Shown here piece after piece: positions 8,536 through 45,614 of a stretch of 45,614 nt of DNA. The stretch is from a candidate division FCPU426 bacterium (GTDB lineage Bacteria > Oederibacteriota > Muellerivitia > Muellerivitales > Muellerivitaceae). The DNA lies in contig PLZG01000083.1 in the NCBI GenBank assembly GCA_003152075.1, positions 1 to 45,614 of the forward strand. The letters run 5' to 3'. A program made the translations under genes and the position numbers. Below the pieces are notes generated by a model. It worked only from the letters and a program-made list of their open reading frames with translations, searched no databases and was not told the origin of the DNA. The first letter of the stretch is position 1, and the number at the start of each line of letters is the position of its first letter.

Positions 8536-9800
8536 CTACTGGAAAACACAATCTCAAGAGTTCGGAGTTGGCGATTTATACCGTGGTCGTTCTGATCGGG
8601 TCGGGCGTCAGTTTGATTTTCCCCTTGATCACGCCTCTCCAGGCAAAAAGCAACTTTTGGTTTTATATCATCTGCCTCTCATCGGGGATCATGGTCTCAT
8701 CCTTGATTCTGCTCGTGGTCCAGAAAATGGTCCTGAGCCCATTGGACGAATTTTTGGACGCGATGGAAAAGGCGTCCCAAGGGGATCTGAATGTTTCCAT
8801 CCAGGGCAAATATATCGGTGACTTCCAGAAGCTGGCGCAACATTTCAACCTGATGCTGGAGTCCCTAAGAGCCTCCGTCGCTCAATTAAAAACCAGTTCG
8901 GATGAAACCCTCCACTTGGCCGAGCAGTTGACCCAAACTATCCAACAAATGCATGGCGCCACGGAGGAAGTTTCCTCAACCATTCAAAATATTTCCAAAG
9001 GGGCGGAAGAGCAGGCTATTAAGGTCCAGGAGGCCTTTAATATCATCGACAAAATGGCGGGGAACATCCAGGTTTCGGCCGAGTTGCTGAGCAATTCGGA
9101 AAAAGTGGTTTCGCGCTCGAAAAACGCCTCGGCGGCGGGAAGCCACGCGGTCCAAAAAACGATTATCCAGATGAACGCCATCCATGAAGTTGTCAATAAT
9201 TCGGCGAGGGAAGTTACTGAGCTTGGGACCAGGTCAAAGGCTATTGGGAAGGTTGTCGAGGTTATCACCCATATCGCCGACCAGACAAATCTCCTGGCCT
9301 TGAACGCCGCAATCGAGGCCGCCAGGGCCGGGGAATATGGCCGGGGTTTCGCGGTTGTCGCCGAGGAAGTGAAAAAGCTAGCCGATGGCTCAGCGGAGGC
9401 CGCCAATCAAATTGGGGTCATGATAAGGGAGATCCAAAAAGAAATATCAACGGTAGTTACCACGATGGGGGCTGGAGCGGAAAAAGTAACCGAGGGGTTG
9501 GCGGTGGTGGCTGAGGGCGGGGGAGCCTTGAAGGAAATCCAATCCGCTTCCGATGAGGTTGCCGATCAAGTCCAGGAAATTTCAAAGTCGTTTGAAAGCC
9601 AAGCTGACCAAGCGGGCAAGGTAGTTGAGGCCATTACGAATATTGTGGCCGTTTCCGAGGAAAACGCGTCCGCTACCCAGGAAATATCGGCTTCCACCCA
9701 GGAATTAACCGCTTCCATGGAATCTATGGTGGCCGCCGCACGCCAACTGGAAGGTGTGGCCCAACGTTTAAAGGAAGCTTCGTCTAATTTCAAGGATTGA
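8532..9800 (+). CDS. methyl-accepting chemotaxis protein without a periplasmic sensor domain
   Basis: A 422-residue chemoreceptor. Two membrane helices (about 13-35 and 43-66) are joined by a loop of only about seven residues, so there is no extracytoplasmic ligand-binding domain. A HAMP domain (about 67-120, [20 protein letters not shown]) and a long coiled-coil signalling domain follow. The hairpin tip that contacts CheA/CheW reads [20 protein letters not shown] then [16 protein letters not shown] (about 253-286). It ends without a CheR-docking pentapeptide. Its GTG start overlaps the ruvB stop, indicating translational coupling. With no sensor domain it may detect membrane state, cytoplasmic signals or a partner protein. 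No other chemotaxis genes are in the window. Confidence 0.9.
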
Positions 9801-9904
9801 TCCCCCCTAAAAGAAGGCCCTTTTTTCATTCTTTGTGATATATTTTCACCCTGTTTGGGATGGCCTTGTTTCTTGGGAAATTATATATTGCCTAATTTTT
9901 CCAC

Positions 9905-9932
9905 TTGAAATTTTTTAAAGAATAAATATATT
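9905..9932 (+). promoter_or_regulatory. candidate sigma70-type promoter before the ABC module
   Basis: TTGAAA at 9905-9910 and TATATT at 9927-9932 are separated by 16 bases. They lie in an AT-rich, 185-base gap between the chemoreceptor and the ABC ATPase gene, about 60 bases before the start codon. The match is by consensus only. Confidence 0.4.
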
Positions 9933-9994
9933 TTTTTCGTTCCGGAATTGTTTGTTGGGCGTCAAAACTCAATCTCTATCCAAGGGTGTTTGAA

Positions 9995-10939
9995 ATGATC
10001 GAGGTCAAGGATCTCGTTAAAAATTACGGAAACTTCGCGGCTGTGGATCACGTCACCTTTTCCGTTCCCGAGGGAACCATCCTCGGCTTATTGGGCCCTA
10101 ATGGCGCCGGTAAAACCACCACTATGCGGGTTCTAACTACTTCTTTGGCAATGACCAGCGGTAAAGTGACGGTTGGCGGTTACGATGTGGTTGACCAACC
10201 CCATGATGTTCGCAAGCGGATCGGCTATCTTCCCGAAGTCCCCCCCATTTATGGCGACATGGACGTTATTTCCTACCTCAAATTCGTGGCGGATATAAAG
10301 GACATTGCCCCCGACAAAAAAACAAACCGAATCGGCGAAGTGCTTGAAATGCTTGATTTAGAAAACATGAGCCGCAGGCTGATTGGCCATTTATCCTTGG
10401 GTTACCGGCAAAGAGTGGGTTTGGCCCAAGCTCTCCTTCATGACCCGGATGTGCTTATTTTGGACGAACCTACCCGTGGGTTGGATCCCAAGCAAATTCT
10501 CGAAATCCGCAAATTGATCAAGTCCCTGAAAGGGAAGAAGACCATTATTCTTTCAACCCATATTCTGCCTGAGGTTTCTTCCACCTGCGACGATGTTGTC
10601 ATCATCGATCAGGGCAAAGTGGTTGCGGCCGATTCGGTCGAAAATCTTTCCCAGAGACTAGCAGGGGGAAAAACCCTTGAAATGGAAGTTAAAGGTCCGT
10701 CAGCAGATATAGAAAAAGCCCTTGGTAAAGTGGAGGGAGTGGTGACAATTAAATTAGCGGGAAAAGAATTGAGGGGAGTCAGCCGGTTCGAGTTGACGAC
10801 CGACGGTTCAACCGAAACCAGGGAAGCGATTTTCCAATGTGTCGTTAAAAATAAATGGGTTCTTTACCAGATAAACCCCCTCGGGATGAGCTTGGAAGAT
10901 GTCTTTTTGAAACTTACCACAAAGGAAACAACCGGATGA
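9995..10939 (+). CDS. ABC transporter ATP-binding protein, GldA-type
   Basis: A 314-residue ATPase subunit. Walker A is GPNGAGKTT (34-42), the Q-loop lies near YLPEVPPIYGDM, the signature is LSLGYRQRVG, Walker B is VLILDEPTRGLDP and the switch His is in STHILPEVS. About 90 residues of C-terminal extension follow, as in DrrA/GldA-type ABC-2 ATPases. The start ATG at 9995 follows AAGGG with a 9-base spacer; an in-frame GTG at 9986 is possible. It is followed, with a 4-base ATGA overlap, by the permease, then a GldG-like protein and a DUF4340 protein. That set is the gliding-type ABC module of Bacteroidetes (gldA-gldF-gldG), which other phyla also carry without proven gliding. The transported substrate is unknown. 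Confidence 0.88.
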   Translation: MIEVKDLVKNYGNFAAVDHVTFSVPEGTILGLLGPNGAGKTTTMRVLTTSLAMTSGKVTVGGYDVVDQPHDVRKRIGYLPEVPPIYGDMDVISYLKFVADIKDIAPDKKTNRIGEVLEMLDLENMSRRLIGHLSLGYRQRVGLAQALLHDPDVLILDEPTRGLDPKQILEIRKLIKSLKGKKTIILSTHILPEVSSTCDDVVIIDQGKVVAADSVENLSQRLAGGKTLEMEVKGPSADIEKALGKVEGVVTIKLAGKELRGVSRFELTTDGSTETREAIFQCVVKNKWVLYQINPLGMSLEDVFLKLTTKETTG

Positions 10940-36312: not shown

Positions 36313-37263
36313 ATGGATAAGCCCTTTCGGGTTTTATTTATGGGTACGTCGGATTTTGCCGTGCCCGCCTTGGAAGCTCTCCATTCCGCGGGTTATATGA
36401 TCCCTTTAGTGGTTACCCAGCCGGACCGGCCTGCGGGGCGCGGTCTTGAGTTAAAAGAATCACCTATCAAGAAAAAAGCCTTGCAGCTCCAATTGCCAGT
36501 ATTCCAGCCCGAGAAAATCAAATCTCCGGATGCCGGTGAAATCCTTCAAACCGCCGCTCCCGATGTTGCGGTCGTGACAGCCTACGGGCAAATACTTCCC
36601 GCTTCCGTCCTACAACTCCCTAAACTGGCCTGCCTCAACATTCATGGCTCCATTCTCCCCAAGTACCGGGGGGCGGCGCCCATCCATTACGCGGTGATGA
36701 ATGGCGAAAAGGAAACGGGCGTGACGATCATGTACATGAACGAGAAGATGGACGAGGGGGATGCACTCCTGGTTAAAAAGACGCCTATTGGTGCCCAGGA
36801 AAACACTGGGGAAGTTCATGATCGCTTAGCGAAATTGGGGGCGGAAGGATTGATGGAAGCTTTGGAACTTCTAAAGCAGGGCAAGGCACCCCGACAACCA
36901 CAGGATTCTTCACAAGCTTCTTACGCACCCAGCTTGAAAAGGGAACAAGGCTTTATCCATTGGGATAAACCTGCCCGGGAAATTGCCAATCAGGTGAGGG
37001 GGCTTTCCCCCTGGCCGGTGGCGGAAACGAAGTGGAAGGAAATGGAATTGAAAGTTCATGTAGCCAGCGCGGAACCCTCTTTCGCTCCCGGGAAGGCGCC
37101 TGGACAGGTTCTTTATGTTGGAAAAGAGGGGTTAAAAATAGTAGCGGGAGATCATGGCATCGTCCTGTTGAAGGAAATCCAACCTCCGGGGAAACGCCGG
37201 ATGAGCGCCTATGAATTCAGCATCGGCCACCCGCAGTTTGGGCCTGGTGAAATGCTCTCGTGA
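36313..37263 (+). CDS. fmt: methionyl-tRNA formyltransferase
   Basis: A 316-residue enzyme that formylates initiator Met-tRNA using 10-formyltetrahydrofolate. Typical segments: VLFMGTSDFAVPALEAL, QPDRPAGRGLELKESPIKK, the folate/catalytic loop LACLNIHGSILPKYRGAAPI with Asn-His, and GVTIMYMNEKMDEGDAL with the catalytic Asp. An OB-like C-terminal tRNA-binding domain ends NxG-type (KEIQPPGKRRMSAYEF). Its stop overlaps the GTG start of rsmB (GTGA), so the two are coupled, as in the common def-fmt-rsmB order. Confidence 0.97.
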   Translation: MDKPFRVLFMGTSDFAVPALEALHSAGYMIPLVVTQPDRPAGRGLELKESPIKKKALQLQLPVFQPEKIKSPDAGEILQTAAPDVAVVTAYGQILPASVLQLPKLACLNIHGSILPKYRGAAPIHYAVMNGEKETGVTIMYMNEKMDEGDALLVKKTPIGAQENTGEVHDRLAKLGAEGLMEALELLKQGKAPRQPQDSSQASYAPSLKREQGFIHWDKPAREIANQVRGLSPWPVAETKWKEMELKVHVASAEPSFAPGKAPGQVLYVGKEGLKIVAGDHGIVLLKEIQPPGKRRMSAYEFSIGHPQFGPGEMLS

Positions 37264-39356
37264 GCCCTACCCCTAAAAAACCAAAAGTTACCAAAACTCC
37301 TAGCTCCGCCAAGGCTATTCCGGGAAAGAAGCCAACCAAGAAACCCGGTCGTCCAAAAGTTAAGTCTAGTTCGGCCAAAAGTCGTCCTGTGTCTGATAAG
37401 CCCGTTCGACGATCTCCAGGCAGGCCGCGTAAGACGGCATCTTTGGAGCAAGCTCCAATCGCAAGAAATGTAGAACAACCACAGGCGGAATCTAAATCTC
37501 CCCCTCCCCCCTTTGCCAAAGTGGGGGAGAGTGAACAGCCCGAGAGCCAAAAAGTTCAACCGCCGAGTCCGCCCGCCGCACCGCAACCAGACAAACCTGT
37601 TCAATCAGTATCTCCGACTGTGGTTAGTGGACCTCCTCGGCAATTTACTCCTGCAAACAACCGTCCTTCTTCGGGACGGCCTCCCTATCGCCCGGGTGGG
37701 CGTCACTCTTCAGGTCGGCCTCCTCATCGTTCTAGCAGACCTTTTCCACGTCCAGGTTCTCCGGGCCGTCCCGGTGACAGGCCTTCGCGTCCTTCAGGAC
37801 CGGGGGATCGTCCCAGGTTCAGCCCAAGGCCGGGCTCTCACCCGACCGGCTCCGGTCCTCCTCGTCCTTCCGGATCAGGAGATCGTCCCAGGTTTAGCCC
37901 AAGGCCGGGCTCTCACCCGACCGGCTCCGGTCCTCCTCGTCCTTCCGGATCAGGAGATCGTCCCAGGTTTAGCCCGAAGCCGGGGTCGCGACCAGGTGGC
38001 CCCATGCCTTTCCGTCCGGAAGGTCCCCGTCGTGATCCGAATGAAATATCCCCCGCCAGGTTAGGGGCGGCCAAGGCTCTTTACAGCATGGAGAAGGGCT
38101 CCAAGGTTTCTGATGTGTTGGTTTCCAACCGCAACCTTATACCGGAAGACGAATCTCTTTTGAGGGAATTGGTCTATGGCTGTACCCGGCAGAAGCGTCT
38201 TTTGGATTACTACCTGAACAGCCTTTGCCAAAGCCCTTTCGAGAAGCTTCCGGTTGAAATTAAAATTTCAATGCGACTGGGCCTTTACCAGCTCTTGTTC
38301 CTCGACCGAGTTCCCGCCCATGCGGCTGTCCATGAATCCGTCAATCTTGCCAAAAGCGGCGGGCAGGAAAAACTAAGCGGTTTTGTGAATGCCGTCTTGA
38401 GGACCGCCGAAACCAAGAAGGCTGGTCTTGAGATAAAAGGGGAAAGCGATGTGGATACCCTTTCCCTCCGTTACTCCCACCCCACCTGGATGACCAAAAA
38501 ATGGGTTAAGGAATATGGCGAAGGCCCGGCGGAAGCAATATTGAAAGCCAATAACCGCCCCCACCCGGTCTATCTTCATGTGAAGCCCGGGTTAGGGGAG
38601 AAGGTCACCGAAGACTTGGGCAAACAAAACGTCCGAGTTTCGGCGGAACCTTGGCCGCCCAATACCATGAGACTTCGTAGCCATGAAGGCGGGCTGTTCA
38701 GCGGGGATAGTTTCCAGCAAGGGGATTGGATTGTGCAGGACTGGGTGCCCCAAGCCATGCTCGAGATTCTGCCCCTTTCCGAGGGCCAAAGGGCCTGGGA
38801 TGTCTGTGCCGCGCCGGGGGGAAAAACCGTCGCCATGGCTTGGAAGTTGGGCGAAAAGGGCCAGGTGCTGGCCAGTGACGCCTCGGCTGATAGGCGCGAA
38901 AAACTAACTGAAAACATTAAGCGCACTGGCTTGAAGCAGGTTATGGTTTATGACGGTTCGGTGGCTCAATTGCCTTCGTCCCAGCGATTCGAATTGGTTT
39001 GGATTGACGCCCCTTGTAGCGGAACGGGAGTCCTGTCACGCCGGGCGGACTTGCGCTGGAGGCTTATACCCAAGGACATTTCGTCAAATGTTGCGACCCA
39101 AAGGGGACTGTTGGAAGAAACTTACGAACATCTCTACCCAAAGGGTTGCCTGGTCTATAGCACTTGCTCGCTCGAAAAAGAGGAGAACCAGGAAGTGGTG
39201 GCCAGCTTTTTGAAGGACCATCCCGAGTGGGGAGTGATGTTCCCAACTGTTCCAGAAGGTCATCCGGAGATCTTGAAGGGTGAGCTGGGCCTGACATTCT
39301 TACCCACTGACGAACATGACGGCGGGTTCCTCGTTATGCTTCAAAGAAAAGATTAA
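37260..39356 (+). CDS. rsmB: 16S rRNA (cytosine-967 C5)-methyltransferase RsmB with a long repetitive N-terminal extension
   Basis: A 698-residue protein, against about 430 for ordinary RsmB. Residues 266-400 are the NusB-like domain (ARLGAAKALYSMEKGSKVSD). About 430-698 are the methyltransferase, with the SAM loop CAAPGGKT (516-523), the catalytic-site DAPCSGTG (Cys586) and YSTCSLEKEE (Cys636). Those signatures are complete. The first 265 residues are an unusual Pro/Arg/Ser/Gly-rich, presumably disordered extension with AT-hook-like cores (KKPGRPKVK, RSPGRPRK) and a 25-residue tandem repeat. The GTG at 37260 overlaps the fmt stop, and the frame remains open and compositionally consistent from there, so the extension is translated rather than a mis-start. 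Confidence 0.92.
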   Translation: MSPTPKKPKVTKTPSSAKAIPGKKPTKKPGRPKVKSSSAKSRPVSDKPVRRSPGRPRKTASLEQAPIARNVEQPQAESKSPPPPFAKVGESEQPESQKVQPPSPPAAPQPDKPVQSVSPTVVSGPPRQFTPANNRPSSGRPPYRPGGRHSSGRPPHRSSRPFPRPGSPGRPGDRPSRPSGPGDRPRFSPRPGSHPTGSGPPRPSGSGDRPRFSPRPGSHPTGSGPPRPSGSGDRPRFSPKPGSRPGGPMPFRPEGPRRDPNEISPARLGAAKALYSMEKGSKVSDVLVSNRNLIPEDESLLRELVYGCTRQKRLLDYYLNSLCQSPFEKLPVEIKISMRLGLYQLLFLDRVPAHAAVHESVNLAKSGGQEKLSGFVNAVLRTAETKKAGLEIKGESDVDTLSLRYSHPTWMTKKWVKEYGEGPAEAILKANNRPHPVYLHVKPGLGEKVTEDLGKQNVRVSAEPWPPNTMRLRSHEGGLFSGDSFQQGDWIVQDWVPQAMLEILPLSEGQRAWDVCAAPGGKTVAMAWKLGEKGQVLASDASADRREKLTENIKRTGLKQVMVYDGSVAQLPSSQRFELVWIDAPCSGTGVLSRRADLRWRLIPKDISSNVATQRGLLEETYEHLYPKGCLVYSTCSLEKEENQEVVASFLKDHPEWGVMFPTVPEGHPEILKGELGLTFLPTDEHDGGFLVMLQRKD
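37791..38003 (+). repeat. 75-bp tandem repeat inside rsmB
   Basis: Copies start at 37791, 37866 and 37941 (the last truncated at about 63 bases). Copies 1 and 2 differ at only a few bases. Each encodes a 25-residue unit containing GDRPRFSPRPGSHPTGSG. A length of exactly 75 keeps the frame, so copy number can vary without breaking the gene. Confidence 0.88.
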
Positions 39357-41119: not shown

Positions 41120-41454
41120 AGGATTTAGGCTTGTGAACCTGTCCACGACGGGGACCCCTAGTAGACAAAACTTTTTCACCTTCTTGACCACTTTCGCATG
41201 ACTTCTTGAACCTTTTTCCATAGTTTCCCCGAGATCAAAGGGGTGTATTTCCCACGTTAAAGTTTCCCCTTCCAATTGAAATACTCGATTTAACCTAGGA
41301 ATCACCCCCCTTTTCTTGAATTCCCTTAAAAACTCTTATTTTCCCCGGATTTGGGTGTGAAATCCTTTTAAGGTTTCTTATATTTTTTTGGAATACTTTC
41401 CTCTCCTCACGGCACTCTTAAGTGAGGGGGTAAATAGGACGGAAGGAATAGAAA
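41120..41454 (+). promoter_or_regulatory. gene-free leader of the ECF locus with candidate promoter and hairpin
   Basis: A 335-base, C/T- and AT-rich stretch without a gene. A possible promoter is GTGAAA (41357-41362) and TATATT (41379-41384) with a 16-base spacer; between the two boxes lies the near-palindrome AATCCTTTTAAGGTTT. After it CCTCAC (41405-41410) pairs with GTGAGG (41422-41427). The hairpin precedes the GGAAGGA ribosome-binding site at 41441. I saw no clear ECF-type box (GGAAC...CGTC). Confidence 0.35.
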
Positions 41455-42024
41455 TTGGATGACCGGATTTTAGTGGAACGCCTCCTGAAGAGGGAGCCGG
41501 AAGCCCAGCAATTCTTCGACCAGGCCTATCGCCTGAAAATCTATCGCGCCTGTTGCCACCTTTTGGGGTATAGGGATTCGGATGCCGAGGACGTGGTCCA
41601 GGAAACATTTCTGGCCGCTCTCCAACAACTATCCAATTTCCAGTTCAAATCCTCCCTTTACCGCTGGCTTTACCAGATCGCAATCTACAAATGCTTCCGG
41701 GTCATCCGGAAACGCCGCCGGCAGGTAGCAGTCCTCGAGGCGGAAATGGAGACACTTTCCGCCGGGAAGGCCTTGGAAAAAGACCAAAAGGAAGAGATGG
41801 AACGCAGGAATCGTGAATTGGCGGGTGTCATTAGGCTGGAACGGGATGCCATGGGCGATCCCTGCAAGACCCTGCTTCAAAAAAGGGATGAGGAGGGGCA
41901 AACCTACGGACAATTGGCAGAGACCCTGAAGATACCGGTTGGAACGGTCATGTCGCGACTGGCCCGGTGCATGGAAACTCTCCGGATGCGGCTCGAAAAG
42001 CGGCGGAAGGGGGAGGTGCAATGA
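41455..42024 (+). CDS. ECF-type RNA polymerase sigma factor
   Basis: A 189-residue extracytoplasmic-function sigma factor. Region 2 (about 10-80) contains YRACCHLLGYRDSDAEDVVQ then ETFLAALQQL and the -10-recognition segment SLYRWLYQIAIYKCFRVIRK. Region 4 (about 130-185) has the HTH EEGQTYGQLAETLKIPVGTV then MSRLARCMETLR, which reads the -35 box. The linker between them is long, charged and helical. It starts with TTG at 41455 after GGAAGGA. The membrane protein gene downstream overlaps it by 4 bases (ATGA), as sigma/anti-sigma pairs do. It probably controls the exoprotein genes that follow. Confidence 0.92.
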   Translation: MDDRILVERLLKREPEAQQFFDQAYRLKIYRACCHLLGYRDSDAEDVVQETFLAALQQLSNFQFKSSLYRWLYQIAIYKCFRVIRKRRRQVAVLEAEMETLSAGKALEKDQKEEMERRNRELAGVIRLERDAMGDPCKTLLQKRDEEGQTYGQLAETLKIPVGTVMSRLARCMETLRMRLEKRRKGEVQ

Positions 42025-42698
42025 ACCCCTTGTATGAGAAATATTTCTTCGGCGAACTGACCGACACCGAGGAGCAAACCTTAGAACAAATGCTGACCCA
42101 ATCGGAATCCGAAGCCTGGGATTTCGGACAAACGGCGGAGGAGGTTTATCACCGTTATGGCCTGCCAGAACCCGAACTGCCGGGTGGGAGCGGGGAAGGG
42201 ATTCCCCCCGGCGCGATAAAGCCCTGGAAGTGGTTGATCCCCTTATCGGGGCTACTGTTTCTAGGAGCTTATTGGTTGTGGAAACAACCCTTAAGCCAGC
42301 TTCCATTGAAACAAAGGGAACCGGCGGTCCCATCGCTTCCGGCCCCGGTGATGAAAGTCATCAAGCGGGCTGTTCCGTCGCCCAAAGCCGGGGAGCCAGC
42401 AGTTAAAGTGCCTGAAGCACACAAAGAAACCCCGCCCGAGGAAGCGGGGATAAAGGAATCCGGGAATAACCTGAAAGTGGTCGTAAGGCGGGAAACGGCC
42501 GGGCCAGTCACCGTGAAAGTGAGTAATTCCTTGGGACTGGAAATACGCCGGTTATACGGTGGAATGTTGCAAACAGGCCGCTGGTCCTTCGAGTGGGACG
42601 GCCGTTTCGGGGACGGGCGACTGGTTGAGCCTGGGAAATACCGTATCGAGGTTCAGACTGAGGGTACGACGCAAAGCAGAGAAATCGTGATCCGATAA
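42021..42698 (+). CDS. membrane anti-sigma-like protein with extracytoplasmic FlgD-type domain
   Basis: A 225-residue, single-pass protein. The cytoplasmic N-terminus (NPLYEKYFFGELTDTEEQTL then EQMLTQS) has the pattern of anti-sigma N-termini, without the zinc HxxxCxxC motif. One membrane helix follows (about 71-87, LIPLSGLLFLGAYWLW), then a Pro/Lys-rich linker (90-150). The C-terminal domain (about 155-225) is of the FlgD-Ig/CHU-C type: VTVKVSNSLGLEIRRLYGGM, WSFEWDGRFGDGRLVEPGKY, RIEVQTEG. The anti-sigma role is inferred from position, overlap and topology. A similar beta-sandwich ends the next gene's product, which suggests that the two interact or share an origin. Confidence 0.7.
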   Translation: MNPLYEKYFFGELTDTEEQTLEQMLTQSESEAWDFGQTAEEVYHRYGLPEPELPGGSGEGIPPGAIKPWKWLIPLSGLLFLGAYWLWKQPLSQLPLKQREPAVPSLPAPVMKVIKRAVPSPKAGEPAVKVPEAHKETPPEEAGIKESGNNLKVVVRRETAGPVTVKVSNSLGLEIRRLYGGMLQTGRWSFEWDGRFGDGRLVEPGKYRIEVQTEGTTQSREIVIR

Positions 42699-42711
42699 GA
42701 AGGGGGGCATT

Positions 42712-44679
42712 ATGAAATCAAAAGAAAAAGGTCAAATGTGCGGGAACCTTATTCGTTTATTGTTCATAACATTCTTTTTCACGGCTGTTCATGTTGGAGC
42801 CCAAACGGACACGTTTACCCCCACTCCCACCGATACTCCCACCGCAACCTTTACCGGCACTCAATCAGCTACTTCGACCTCCACTGATACGCCGACGTCC
42901 AGCAATACCCGGACGAGCACCTTTACGCCGACCTCCACTAACACACCTACTTCCACCAATACCAGGACGAGCACCTTCACGCCGACGAACACCAACACTC
43001 CAACGAACACCAACACCCCAATTAAGACCTTCACCGGTACTCAATCGGCGACCTCTACCTCCACAAATACGCCGACCTCCACTAACACGCCGACATCCAC
43101 CAATACCCGGACGAGCACCTTCATGCCGACGAACACCAACACACCGACTAAGACCTTCACCGGCACTCAATCGGCGACGTCAACATCCACTCACACATCA
43201 ACATCCACCAATACCCGGACGAGTACCTTTACGCCGACGAACAGCAACACCCCAACTATGACCTTCACTGGCACTCAATCACCAACTTCCACATCCACTA
43301 ATACACCTACGTCCACCAATACCCGGACGAGCACCTTTACGCCGACGAACACCAACACTCCAACTACGACTTTCACCGGCACTCAATCGGCGACGTCAAC
43401 ATTCACTAACACGCGAACCTCCACAAACACACCTACTTCCACCAATACCAGGACGAGCACCTTCACGCCGACGAACAGCAACACCCCAACTATGACCTTC
43501 ACTGGCACTCAATCACCAACTTCCACATCCACTAATACACCGACCTCCACTAACACACCTACGTCCACCAATACTCGGACAAGTACCTTTACGTCGACGA
43601 ACACCAAAACTCCAACTATGACCTTCACTGGCACTCAATCACCAACTTCCACATCCACTAATACGCCAACCGCCACTAACACGCCGACGTCCACCAATAC
43701 CCGGACGAGCACTTTTACGCCGACGAACAGCAACACCCCAACTATGACCTTCACTGGCACTCAATCACCAACTTCCACATCCACTAATACACCTACGTCC
43801 ACCAATACCCGGACGAGCACCTTCACGCCGACGAACACCAACACTCCAACTACGACTTTCACCGGCACTCAATCGGCGACGTCAACATTCACTAACACGC
43901 GAACCCCCACAAACACGCCGACGTCTACCAATACAAGGACGAGTACATTTACGCCGACGAACACCAACACCCCAACTACGACCTTTACCGGTACTCAATC
44001 GGCGACGGCAACATCCACTAACACGCGAACCCCCACAAACACGCCGACGTTTACCAATACAAGGACGAGTACATTTACGCCGACGAACACCAACACCCCA
44101 ACTATGACCTTCACTGGCACTCAATCGGCGACGTCAACATCCACAAACACGCCAACCTCCACTAACACACCTACATCCACTAACACACCTACATCCACCA
44201 ACACCCGGACGAGCACCTTTACGCCGACGAACACTAACACGCCCACTTTCAGCAATACCCCGACCAACACAAACACCCCGACGACAACCTTTACCGGCAC
44301 TCAATCGGCGACGTCAACATCCACAAACACTCCTACTTTCGCTTCAGCACCCAGTAGCAAACCGGCACCCATCGCATACCCCAATCCCGCAACAGGGTCC
44401 CAGGTAAGTATCTCTGTGCCCTCTTCTCTGTTGGTTTCAAATACAGTTAAGGCAATGACTTTCGGGGCGCAAAGCGAGGCCGCCAACGTCAAGGTCCAGG
44501 TTTACACGCCGACTTATCGCAAGGTGCAAGATATTGTGTTTCCCCAAGTCCAACCGGGAACTCCGATCACCCTGGATTTATTGGACAAATGGGGAGCTCG
44601 GCTTTCAAACGGTATTTACTACCTCGTCGTGACTACCTCCCAAGGTAAATACACCTTGAAACTTCTCGTCCTCCGTTAA
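42712..44679 (+). CDS. secreted Thr-repeat protein with C-terminal FlgD/sorting-like domain
   Basis: A 655-residue exported protein. The signal peptide ends near VHVGA-QT. Residues about 28-545 consist of Thr at every second position in hexads such as TNTPTS, TNTRTS and TFTPTN. These are grouped into 12 modules, each opening TFTGTQS[A/P] and mostly 36 or 42 residues long. Such a strand would carry Thr on one face, suited to dense O-glycosylation, giving an extended stalk. After a linker (APSSKPAPIA) the last 90 residues form a FlgD-Ig or type-IX-sorting-like domain (YPNPATGSQVSISVPSS, VQVYTPTYRKVQDI, LSNGIYYLVVTTSQGKYTLK). A strong AAGGGGGG site precedes the ATG. It is probably a surface or released adhesin/stalk under the ECF factor upstream. 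Confidence 0.82.
   Translation: MKSKEKGQMCGNLIRLLFITFFFTAVHVGAQTDTFTPTPTDTPTATFTGTQSATSTSTDTPTSSNTRTSTFTPTSTNTPTSTNTRTSTFTPTNTNTPTNTNTPIKTFTGTQSATSTSTNTPTSTNTPTSTNTRTSTFMPTNTNTPTKTFTGTQSATSTSTHTSTSTNTRTSTFTPTNSNTPTMTFTGTQSPTSTSTNTPTSTNTRTSTFTPTNTNTPTTTFTGTQSATSTFTNTRTSTNTPTSTNTRTSTFTPTNSNTPTMTFTGTQSPTSTSTNTPTSTNTPTSTNTRTSTFTSTNTKTPTMTFTGTQSPTSTSTNTPTATNTPTSTNTRTSTFTPTNSNTPTMTFTGTQSPTSTSTNTPTSTNTRTSTFTPTNTNTPTTTFTGTQSATSTFTNTRTPTNTPTSTNTRTSTFTPTNTNTPTTTFTGTQSATATSTNTRTPTNTPTFTNTRTSTFTPTNTNTPTMTFTGTQSATSTSTNTPTSTNTPTSTNTPTSTNTRTSTFTPTNTNTPTFSNTPTNTNTPTTTFTGTQSATSTSTNTPTFASAPSSKPAPIAYPNPATGSQVSISVPSSLLVSNTVKAMTFGAQSEAANVKVQVYTPTYRKVQDIVFPQVQPGTPITLDLLDKWGARLSNGIYYLVVTTSQGKYTLKLLVLR
42805..44340 (+). 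repeat. higher-order tandem repeat array encoding the Thr stalk
   Basis: 18-bp hexad units build 108- to 180-bp modules, marked by TTCACCGGCACTCAATC and close variants. The block around 43255 recurs about 486 bases later around 43741 with very few changes, including the rare variants (SATSTFTNTR), showing recent segmental duplication of four modules. Confidence 0.85.
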
Positions 44680-44736
44680 TGCCTTGACCCGGATTTCCTG
44701 GATGAAATTTCCTTTGTAACTTGATTGGAATTTTCA

Positions 44737-45614
44737 ATGCCGACTCAAAAAACCTTATTTTTTTTATTTTCAACTTTGGTCTTGAGCCTGTGGGGCGCCC
44801 AAGAGGGATGGGCGGTTCGTCCCCTCTCCGCCAATATTGCCCTGGTCGCCGGGGGGGAAGGCCGTCCTGGTTTCAAAGATGGAAGTTTTACTTCGGCCCT
44901 TTTCAATAGGCCCCTCGGCTTAGCGGTCAGTGAGGATGGCACCCGCCTCTATGTCGCCGATTCCGGCAACAACCGCATCCGCGTCATCCATCTGGACCAG
45001 AACAATGAGGTCACCACCCTTGCCGGGCAGGATGGGGCGGGAAAATTGGACGGCCCTTTAACCCTGGCGCAATTCAACCATCCCCGCGGGGTACTTTGTC
45101 TGCCGGGTAACCGCCTGGTGGTAAACGATTTTGGAAACCAGCTCCTTCGCCTCGTGGACCTGAAAGCCGGAACCGTCACAATCCTCACGGGTACCCCGTC
45201 CGGGACCGCTACGCCCTCGATTGTCCCCGCGGCGCAAGTTTCGATGAAAGGCGTCAGGGAGTTGGCCTACATGCCCATGGCCCATTCGATCTTCTTTACC
45301 CAACCCGAATTGGGTGCCTTAAATAGGCTGGATTTGAAGACCGGTCTGGTTTCAACGGTGCTCGAAAAGAATACCCAGATTCCCAATCCGGCCGCTCTCT
45401 GGTGCCAGGGGAACAAGCTTTACGTGGCGGACAAGGAACTGCCCCAGATATGGGAGATGGATTGGAAGGATAACGCCGCCGCAAACCCTTTGGCGATACC
45501 GACCCCCCTCGGTAAAGTGCTTTCCTTGTCCCTGAACGGCGGCATCCTTTATACCCTCTTGGCAATCCCCGGCGTTCCAGCCCAGCGATTCTTCCTCGAT
45601 AAGCAGTATTGGGA
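44737..45614 (+). CDS. secreted NHL-repeat beta-propeller protein (cut by the right window edge)
   Basis: At least 292 residues with no stop before the window ends. The signal peptide is LFFLFSTLVLSLWGAQEGWA. It has NHL/six-bladed-propeller units: FNRPLGLAVSEDGTRLYVAD then SGNNRIRVI, FNHPRGVLCLPGNRLVVND then FGNQLLRLVDL, and further blades with LYVADKELPQIWEM. These closely follow the 'DG.G..A.FN.P.G...' style of extracellular NHL proteins, which act as protein- or glycan-binding scaffolds. It begins 57 bases after the Thr-repeat gene and is likely part of the same ECF-controlled surface locus. It may carry its own C-terminal FlgD-like domain beyond the window. Confidence 0.85.
   Translation, partial: MPTQKTLFFLFSTLVLSLWGAQEGWAVRPLSANIALVAGGEGRPGFKDGSFTSALFNRPLGLAVSEDGTRLYVADSGNNRIRVIHLDQNNEVTTLAGQDGAGKLDGPLTLAQFNHPRGVLCLPGNRLVVNDFGNQLLRLVDLKAGTVTILTGTPSGTATPSIVPAAQVSMKGVRELAYMPMAHSIFFTQPELGALNRLDLKTGLVSTVLEKNTQIPNPAALWCQGNKLYVADKELPQIWEMDWKDNAAANPLAIPTPLGKVLSLSLNGGILYTLLAIPGVPAQRFFLDKQYW

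Follow-up and report, generated by a model that had tools for sequence, protein, structure and literature searches.

We identified a gene module that joins an ECF sigma factor, a single-pass anti-sigma-type membrane protein whose outer domain resembles the tails of type IX secretion system (T9SS) cargo and, almost everywhere, a PorV-family gene. The module is real and recurrent, and the pairing of the genes, the identity of the domains and the linkage to PorV are well supported. We give about even chances to the reading that it is a trans-envelope sigma switch tied to type IX-like secretion, in which the anti-sigma shows a cargo-tail-like domain to the PorV shuttle. More tentatively, the anti-sigma may use its copy of the cargo secretion tag to read the occupancy of a dedicated PorV, in which case each sigma/anti-sigma/PorV set would match the transcription of surface stalk proteins to how heavily its own export route is loaded.

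The window, by which we mean the whole stretch of DNA analysed, is a complete contig (C41) of 45,614 bases from a 4.1-Mb genome that is 99.97% complete. The source organism is a bacterium of the candidate phylum FCPU426/Goldbacteria; the named relatives that carry close copies are candidate division FCPU426 MAGs, and FCPU426 has been linked to Goldbacteria (PMC7031533). The features of the locus are collected in Table 1. The NHL gene is truncated because the window is the whole contig and the gene runs into the contig end. Elsewhere in the window, at 37260-39356, an RsmB-type rRNA methyltransferase carries a Pro/Arg/Ser-rich N-terminal extension of about 260 residues with repeats of 'SGSGDRPRFSPRPGSHPTG'.

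Table 1. Coordinates of the sigma/anti-sigma locus and its neighbours in the 45,614-base window
Feature	Coordinates	Strand	Evidence
Candidate autoregulatory ECF promoter: GGAATA (41390-41395), 17-bp spacer, CACTC (41413-41417)	41390..41417	+	Variant of the family motif
ECF sigma factor, 189 aa, TTG start	41455..42024	+	Sigma70_r2 7e-12, r4 7.7e-07 (Pfam); TIGR02937 sigma70-ECF over cut-off
Anti-sigma-type single-pass membrane protein, 225 aa	42021..42698	+	ATGA overlap with sigma gene; paralogues
Three helices at the N-terminus, residues 1-46, without a zinc motif; presumed to bind the sigma in the cytoplasm	42021..42158	+	AlphaFold; position of zf-HC2 in homologues of other families
Helix, residues 73-87, predicted transmembrane segment	42237..42281	+	AlphaFold
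Periplasmic FlgD-Ig / T9SS-CTD-like beta-sandwich, residues 150-225	42468..42695	+	FlgD_ig 1.3e-09; Foldseek; PDB profile search
Exported Thr/Pro-repeat surface protein, 655 aa	42712..44679	+	Signal-peptide-like N-terminus (by eye); tandem repeats
T9SS type A sorting domain of the Thr-repeat protein	44377..44670	+	TIGR04183; model matches PorU, mirolase CTD, PorZ, NucA CTD
Exported NHL propeller protein, 5' part only	44737..45614	+	NHL 2.4e-11

The product of the first gene has the region 2 and region 4 matches, both over cut-off, and the lack of a region 3 match that define an ECF sigma. The ATG of the membrane-protein gene at 42021 overlaps the TGA stop of the sigma gene, and this position, downstream of the sigma gene and overlapping it, is the layout of class I anti-sigma genes. 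The original prediction of an ECF sigma overlapping, by ATGA, a single-pass membrane protein with a FlgD-Ig-like outer domain was borne out: ORF coordinates and Pfam matches agree, and FlgD_ig covers residues 157-214. The prediction had also placed an exported Thr-repeat protein and an exported NHL protein after the pair, and both the repeats and the NHL match were found. The Thr-repeat gene starts 13 bp past the anti-sigma gene, its tandem repeats have unit lengths that are multiples of 18 bp, and the C-terminus of its product scores 25.3 bits against the TIGR04183 Por_Secre_tail cut-off of 23, with neighbours in the frame.

In the AlphaFold model of the membrane protein, the three N-terminal helices (residues 3-46) have a pLDDT of 91-97 and the beta-sandwich, which begins at about residue 150, has a pLDDT of about 95. 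Between them, a disordered Pro-rich linker of about 60 residues follows the transmembrane helix. The N-terminal segment had been described as lacking a zinc motif, and there was indeed no HxxxCxxC in the window protein or in the listed members of its family, f1. Absence of the motif is ordinary, since about half of the membrane-bound class I anti-sigmas lack one (PMC7406223). The profile search that had been proposed for this segment gave no significant match to any known anti-sigma domain in Pfam or among PDB profiles. Homology thus pointed to no sigma-binding fold in the zinc-less form, but homologues in other families carry zf-HC2 at this position. We infer that the N-terminal helices bind the sigma and hold it. 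Membership of the FecR family, suggested by a 'DLTEAE..L..WL..SPE' look, was not supported by a search that gave no FecR match and a DUF4880 match of E=0.12 in one member only. Signalling of the FecR/FecI kind was rejected as well, the neighbours being PorV-family and exported proteins instead.

The pair is one of eight in the genome. Searching with the window membrane protein found seven paralogues, each directly after or overlapping an ECF sigma gene. A PorV-family gene lies within about 5 kb of the pair in all seven cases with intact flanks (7/7), and all of these genes score over the NF033709 cut-off. Both PorV genes and T9SS-type CTDs are many in this genome; from about 20 PorV genes in 4.1 Mb, we estimate the chance of meeting one in a random 11.5-kb stretch at ~6%. 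The PorV proteins of the modules bear a C-terminal TPR in 7/7 cases; of the clear PorV genes examined elsewhere, about 16, a single one does. The seven pairs are surrounded by exported proteins of the NHL, kelch, subtilase or pectate-lyase type, most of which end in T9SS-like domains, and the type of cargo differs from copy to copy while PorV is the constant neighbour. The genome's remaining five ECF sigmas have ordinary neighbours, with neither a CTD anti-sigma nor a credible PorV beside them. The exact four-gene order of the window, whose recurrence had been suggested as a check, is not repeated; what recurs is a set of sigma, anti-sigma with a CTD, and PorV, usually joined by exported proteins that have a CTD or repeats.

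Homologues of the membrane protein keep company with ECF sigma genes, as the original prediction implied: by six-frame search, an ECF sigma lies immediately upstream in 28/29 N-terminal homologues of the family. The only homologue lacking an adjoining ECF sigma, at L060:5129-5905, is possibly an orphan, and two tandem anti-sigma-type genes at L062:7917-8756 and 9395-10207 each have their own ECF sigma. A further set of 20 loci, from 14 genomes and eight other families, was chosen by tail similarity alone. These zinc-type loci encode an ECF sigma and a membrane protein that combines HxxxCxxC and a single transmembrane segment with a long linker and the same tail. Pfam recognised FlgD_ig in all 20 proteins, zf-HC2 in 14/20, CHU_C (the 'Type IX secretion signal domain') in 11/20 and Por_Secre_tail in 3/20. 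PorV directly adjoins the pair in 16/20 zinc-type loci, and those tested pass NF033709; the four copies without an adjacent PorV, among the 20 examined, all belong to one genome. Searching the phylum with the zinc-type alignment yielded about 31 full-length members, together with many cargo proteins matched through the tail only, down to 4e-31. In the sigma tree, the f1 sigmas group together in one clade (98/95); for those of the zinc type no single clade is resolved. As other families have the zf-HC2-type version, the zinc-less window protein appears to be a local form of the classical anti-sigma layout. Linkers measure 60 residues in the window protein, 46-136 in its family and 107-173 in the zinc type; at 46-173 residues, an extended linker could be long enough for the tail to approach the outer membrane. 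Two further features were seen. A different shared promoter-like pair, GGAACT-N~15-TCTGTC, near the classical ECF consensus, lies upstream of zinc-type sigma genes at L095, L074, L102 and L107, and the PorV-family barrels of L085, L093, L119, L121 and L170 have C-termini that resemble, by eye, OmpA-type peptidoglycan-binding ends.

We compared the outer domain of the anti-sigma with the tail of the cargo. Foldseek placed FlgD at the top for the anti-sigma model, followed by PorZ, PorU and the NucA CTD, so that the modelled domain shares the fold of solved T9SS CTDs. A profile search of the PDB likewise returned FlgD (7.9e-13). For the cargo-tail model, the PDB matches were PorU, the mirolase CTD, PorZ, the NucA CTD and then FlgD. 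A profile built from zinc-type anti-sigma tails bridges the two, matching the window anti-sigma at 1.6e-10 and the window Thr cargo at 1.5e-5 (database of 639 ORFs). The two C-terminal domains are thus related, as had been proposed, both models matching the same T9SS domains and FlgD. Of the three conditions that had been named as refuting the prediction, none was clearly seen. Judged by sequence and by models, the tails of anti-sigma and cargo appear to belong to one kind of domain in family and in fold. The stronger wording of the prediction, that the cargo ends in the same kind of domain, holds for the related fold; profiles identify the cargo tail as a T9SS type A sorting domain, not as FlgD_ig, and the window anti-sigma matches FlgD_ig only. 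Direct hhalign comparison of f1 anti-sigma tails with neighbouring cargo tails was weak (probability 21%), and the f1 tails do not have the YPNP-type start of cargo tails. The resemblance is therefore one of relationship and not of near identity.

These observations bear on whether the outer domain merely senses a ligand or envelope stress as a generic Ig-like module of the periplasm, its likeness to cargo being due to common beta-sandwich descent and the PorV neighbours being merely the regulon. ECF anti-sigmas have very diverse outer domains, FlgD is the best match in both structure and sequence, and in the tail tree the f1 tails, besides their missing YPNP start, form their own clade separate from cargo tails (98/93). 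We nevertheless regard a generic sensor as rather unlikely. The CHU_C model of T9SS signals recognises more than half of the zinc-type tails, these tails fall among cargo tails in the tree (which has few columns and some rows mislabelled by the neighbour rule), and in many families the pair is linked to PorV, known relatives of which bind this domain. We claim no firm origin for the tail, as the tail tree has too few columns and several rows are mislabelled by the neighbour rule.

The sigmas of family f1 probably read the motif GGAATA-N16-CACTA, since it sits at their own genes. The motif is ECF-like (-35 GGAA) and, in a form that allows 15-18 bases of spacing and some variation in the -10 box, occurs upstream of 14/23 family f1 sigma genes versus 11/213 other ORFs (shuffle mean 0.04). 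The exact motif has 14 sites in the genome versus 0 for the reversed pattern, and a longer form with one mismatch has 28 versus 10 for the control. Compared with the motif, the window copy has a spacer one base longer and a different final base in the -10 box, and the TTG start is about 38 bp downstream. The targets of the 14 exact sites include three sigma operons, six Thr/Pro-rich exported lipoproteins that share a C..LPSAP-like start, and one protein with a CTD-type end; several of the motif targets are lipoproteins with no obvious CTD. We consider the Thr/Pro-rich lipoproteins with C-x(4-6)-LPSAP likely targets of the sigmas, and the motif, together with these likely targets, offers a regulatory handle on what an uncultured phylum displays at its surface. 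Lipoproteins with C-x(4-6)-LPSAP or a similar start are encoded at C8:7928, C33:3608, C89:8754, C89:75968, C93:3674 and C93:4678 (L137, L139, L142-L144).

We searched the genome for the type IX machinery. A SprA-like protein of 1988 residues (C39:25308-31274; L118:9308-15274) has collinear partial matches to TIGR04189 that are below cut-off. No GldL, no PglZ (PF08665) of the PorX type and no sortase were found in the genome, PorU being matched in its CTD part only and not in its protease part. Given the undetected GldL, PglZ and PorU protease and the partial SprA match below cut-off, the T9SS of this bacterium seems divergent or only partly present or recognised. Adjoining the SprA-like protein is a 1557-residue protein with a FlgD_ig-type tail.

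In the switch that we favour, the cytoplasmic N-terminal helices of the membrane protein would hold the ECF sigma, and the flexible linker beyond the transmembrane helix would present the CTD-related beta-sandwich to the outer-membrane machinery. The most likely docking partner of the tail would be the PorV-family shuttle of the same cluster, where the tail may compete with cargo or mimic it. The anti-sigma would change its state with that of the shuttle (free, loaded or absent), and the sigma would be released or held. Freed sigma would then transcribe its own operon, Thr/Pro-stalk surface lipoproteins and some CTD cargo from GGAATA-N16-CACTA. Competition or mimicry at PorV is proposed because known relatives of PorV bind cargo CTDs and shuttles pair with tags. 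In Porphyromonas gingivalis, PorV binds cargo CTDs experimentally, among them the CTD of PorA, a regulator placed upstream of the ECF sigma SigP (PMC7712824), and the shuttles of F. johnsoniae recognise tags in CTD/shuttle pairs (PMC12618676). We infer the contact between tail and PorV, the direction in which the switch responds and the reporting of secretion state by sigma activity.

The original prediction had the tail mimic or bind the cargo tail itself; with binding, unsecreted periplasmic cargo could titrate the anti-sigma and alter sigma activity. Folds on anti-sigma and cargo are related, and cargo genes directly follow the pair in the window. We consider this mechanism improbable, as no homotypic CTD-CTD regulatory contact was found to be known and the cargo genes around the pairs vary in type. 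Docking on PorV, a partner that the original prediction did not include, is better supported than docking on the cargo tail because PorV is encoded beside the pair almost everywhere. A third mechanism makes the tail a working sorting signal, so that the translocon engages or clips the anti-sigma and the loss of its outer part sets off intramembrane proteolysis and frees the sigma, a membrane-bound analogue of FlgM export; zinc-type tails do retain the full motif set (N-x-INP..GE, GxY and a K..V-I-K end) and match T9SS signal models, and with FlgM/FliA there is a precedent for a sigma that is coupled to secretion, but we give this little credence, as the anti-sigma has an inner-membrane anchor, which makes its export across the outer membrane unlikely, and no cleavable signal was seen in it, the f1 tails have lost the N-terminal motif and the genome has no recognised sortase.

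The module, read as a PorV-facing sigma switch, suggests that these bacteria may switch genes on by sensing the state of their own secretion system. The sensing of type IX secretion by the cell is an open question: in P. gingivalis, the activator of PorY is unknown and the link from PorA to PorY has no middle partner (PMC7712824). Because a recurrent natural gene set joins a tag-like domain, a shuttle and a sigma in one cluster, the question of secretion sensing becomes directly testable. We found no report of an anti-sigma with a FlgD or T9SS tail in the searchable papers; an earlier mention, for instance in ECF classification, is possible.

The outer domain belongs by fold and sequence family with the Ig-like domain of the FlgD hook cap and the T9SS CTDs of PorU, PorZ and NucA, although FlgD is a flagellar cap protein and the domain here is tethered to an anti-sigma. 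In FecI/FecR, as in the switch proposed here, a neighbouring gene encodes an outer-membrane beta-barrel that the periplasmic part of the anti-sigma may contact; unlike in that system, no TonB-dependent receptor and no FecR domain were seen. ECF sigmas with class I membrane anti-sigmas share the overlapping genes, the small N-terminal helical domain, the single transmembrane helix, the periplasmic sensor domain, likely autoregulation and the zinc motif of the window protein's relatives, (PMC7406223); the sensor domain here, by contrast, resembles T9SS cargo tails, and PorV-family genes accompany the pair. The original prediction held outer domains of the cargo's sorting-domain type to be unusual for anti-sigmas. 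SigI/RsgI of Clostridium thermocellum, with many paralogous sigma/anti-sigma pairs per genome and outer domains that resemble modules of exported cargo (CBM3, GH10), is a precedent that weakens this claim (PMC4711584). What stands of it is that RsgI senses polysaccharide through cargo-like binding modules and SigI is not an ECF sigma, whereas the module shared here is of the sorting-tail kind and not the substrate-binding part (PMC4711584). Closest in theme is PorXY-SigP/PorA of P. gingivalis, in which an ECF sigma controls T9SS genes and a PorV-binding CTD protein acts upstream (PMC7712824). P. gingivalis uses a two-component system and a surface protein, with no CTD-bearing anti-sigma, whereas in the FCPU426 bacterium the PglZ domain of PorX is undetected and it is the anti-sigma that carries the CTD-like domain.
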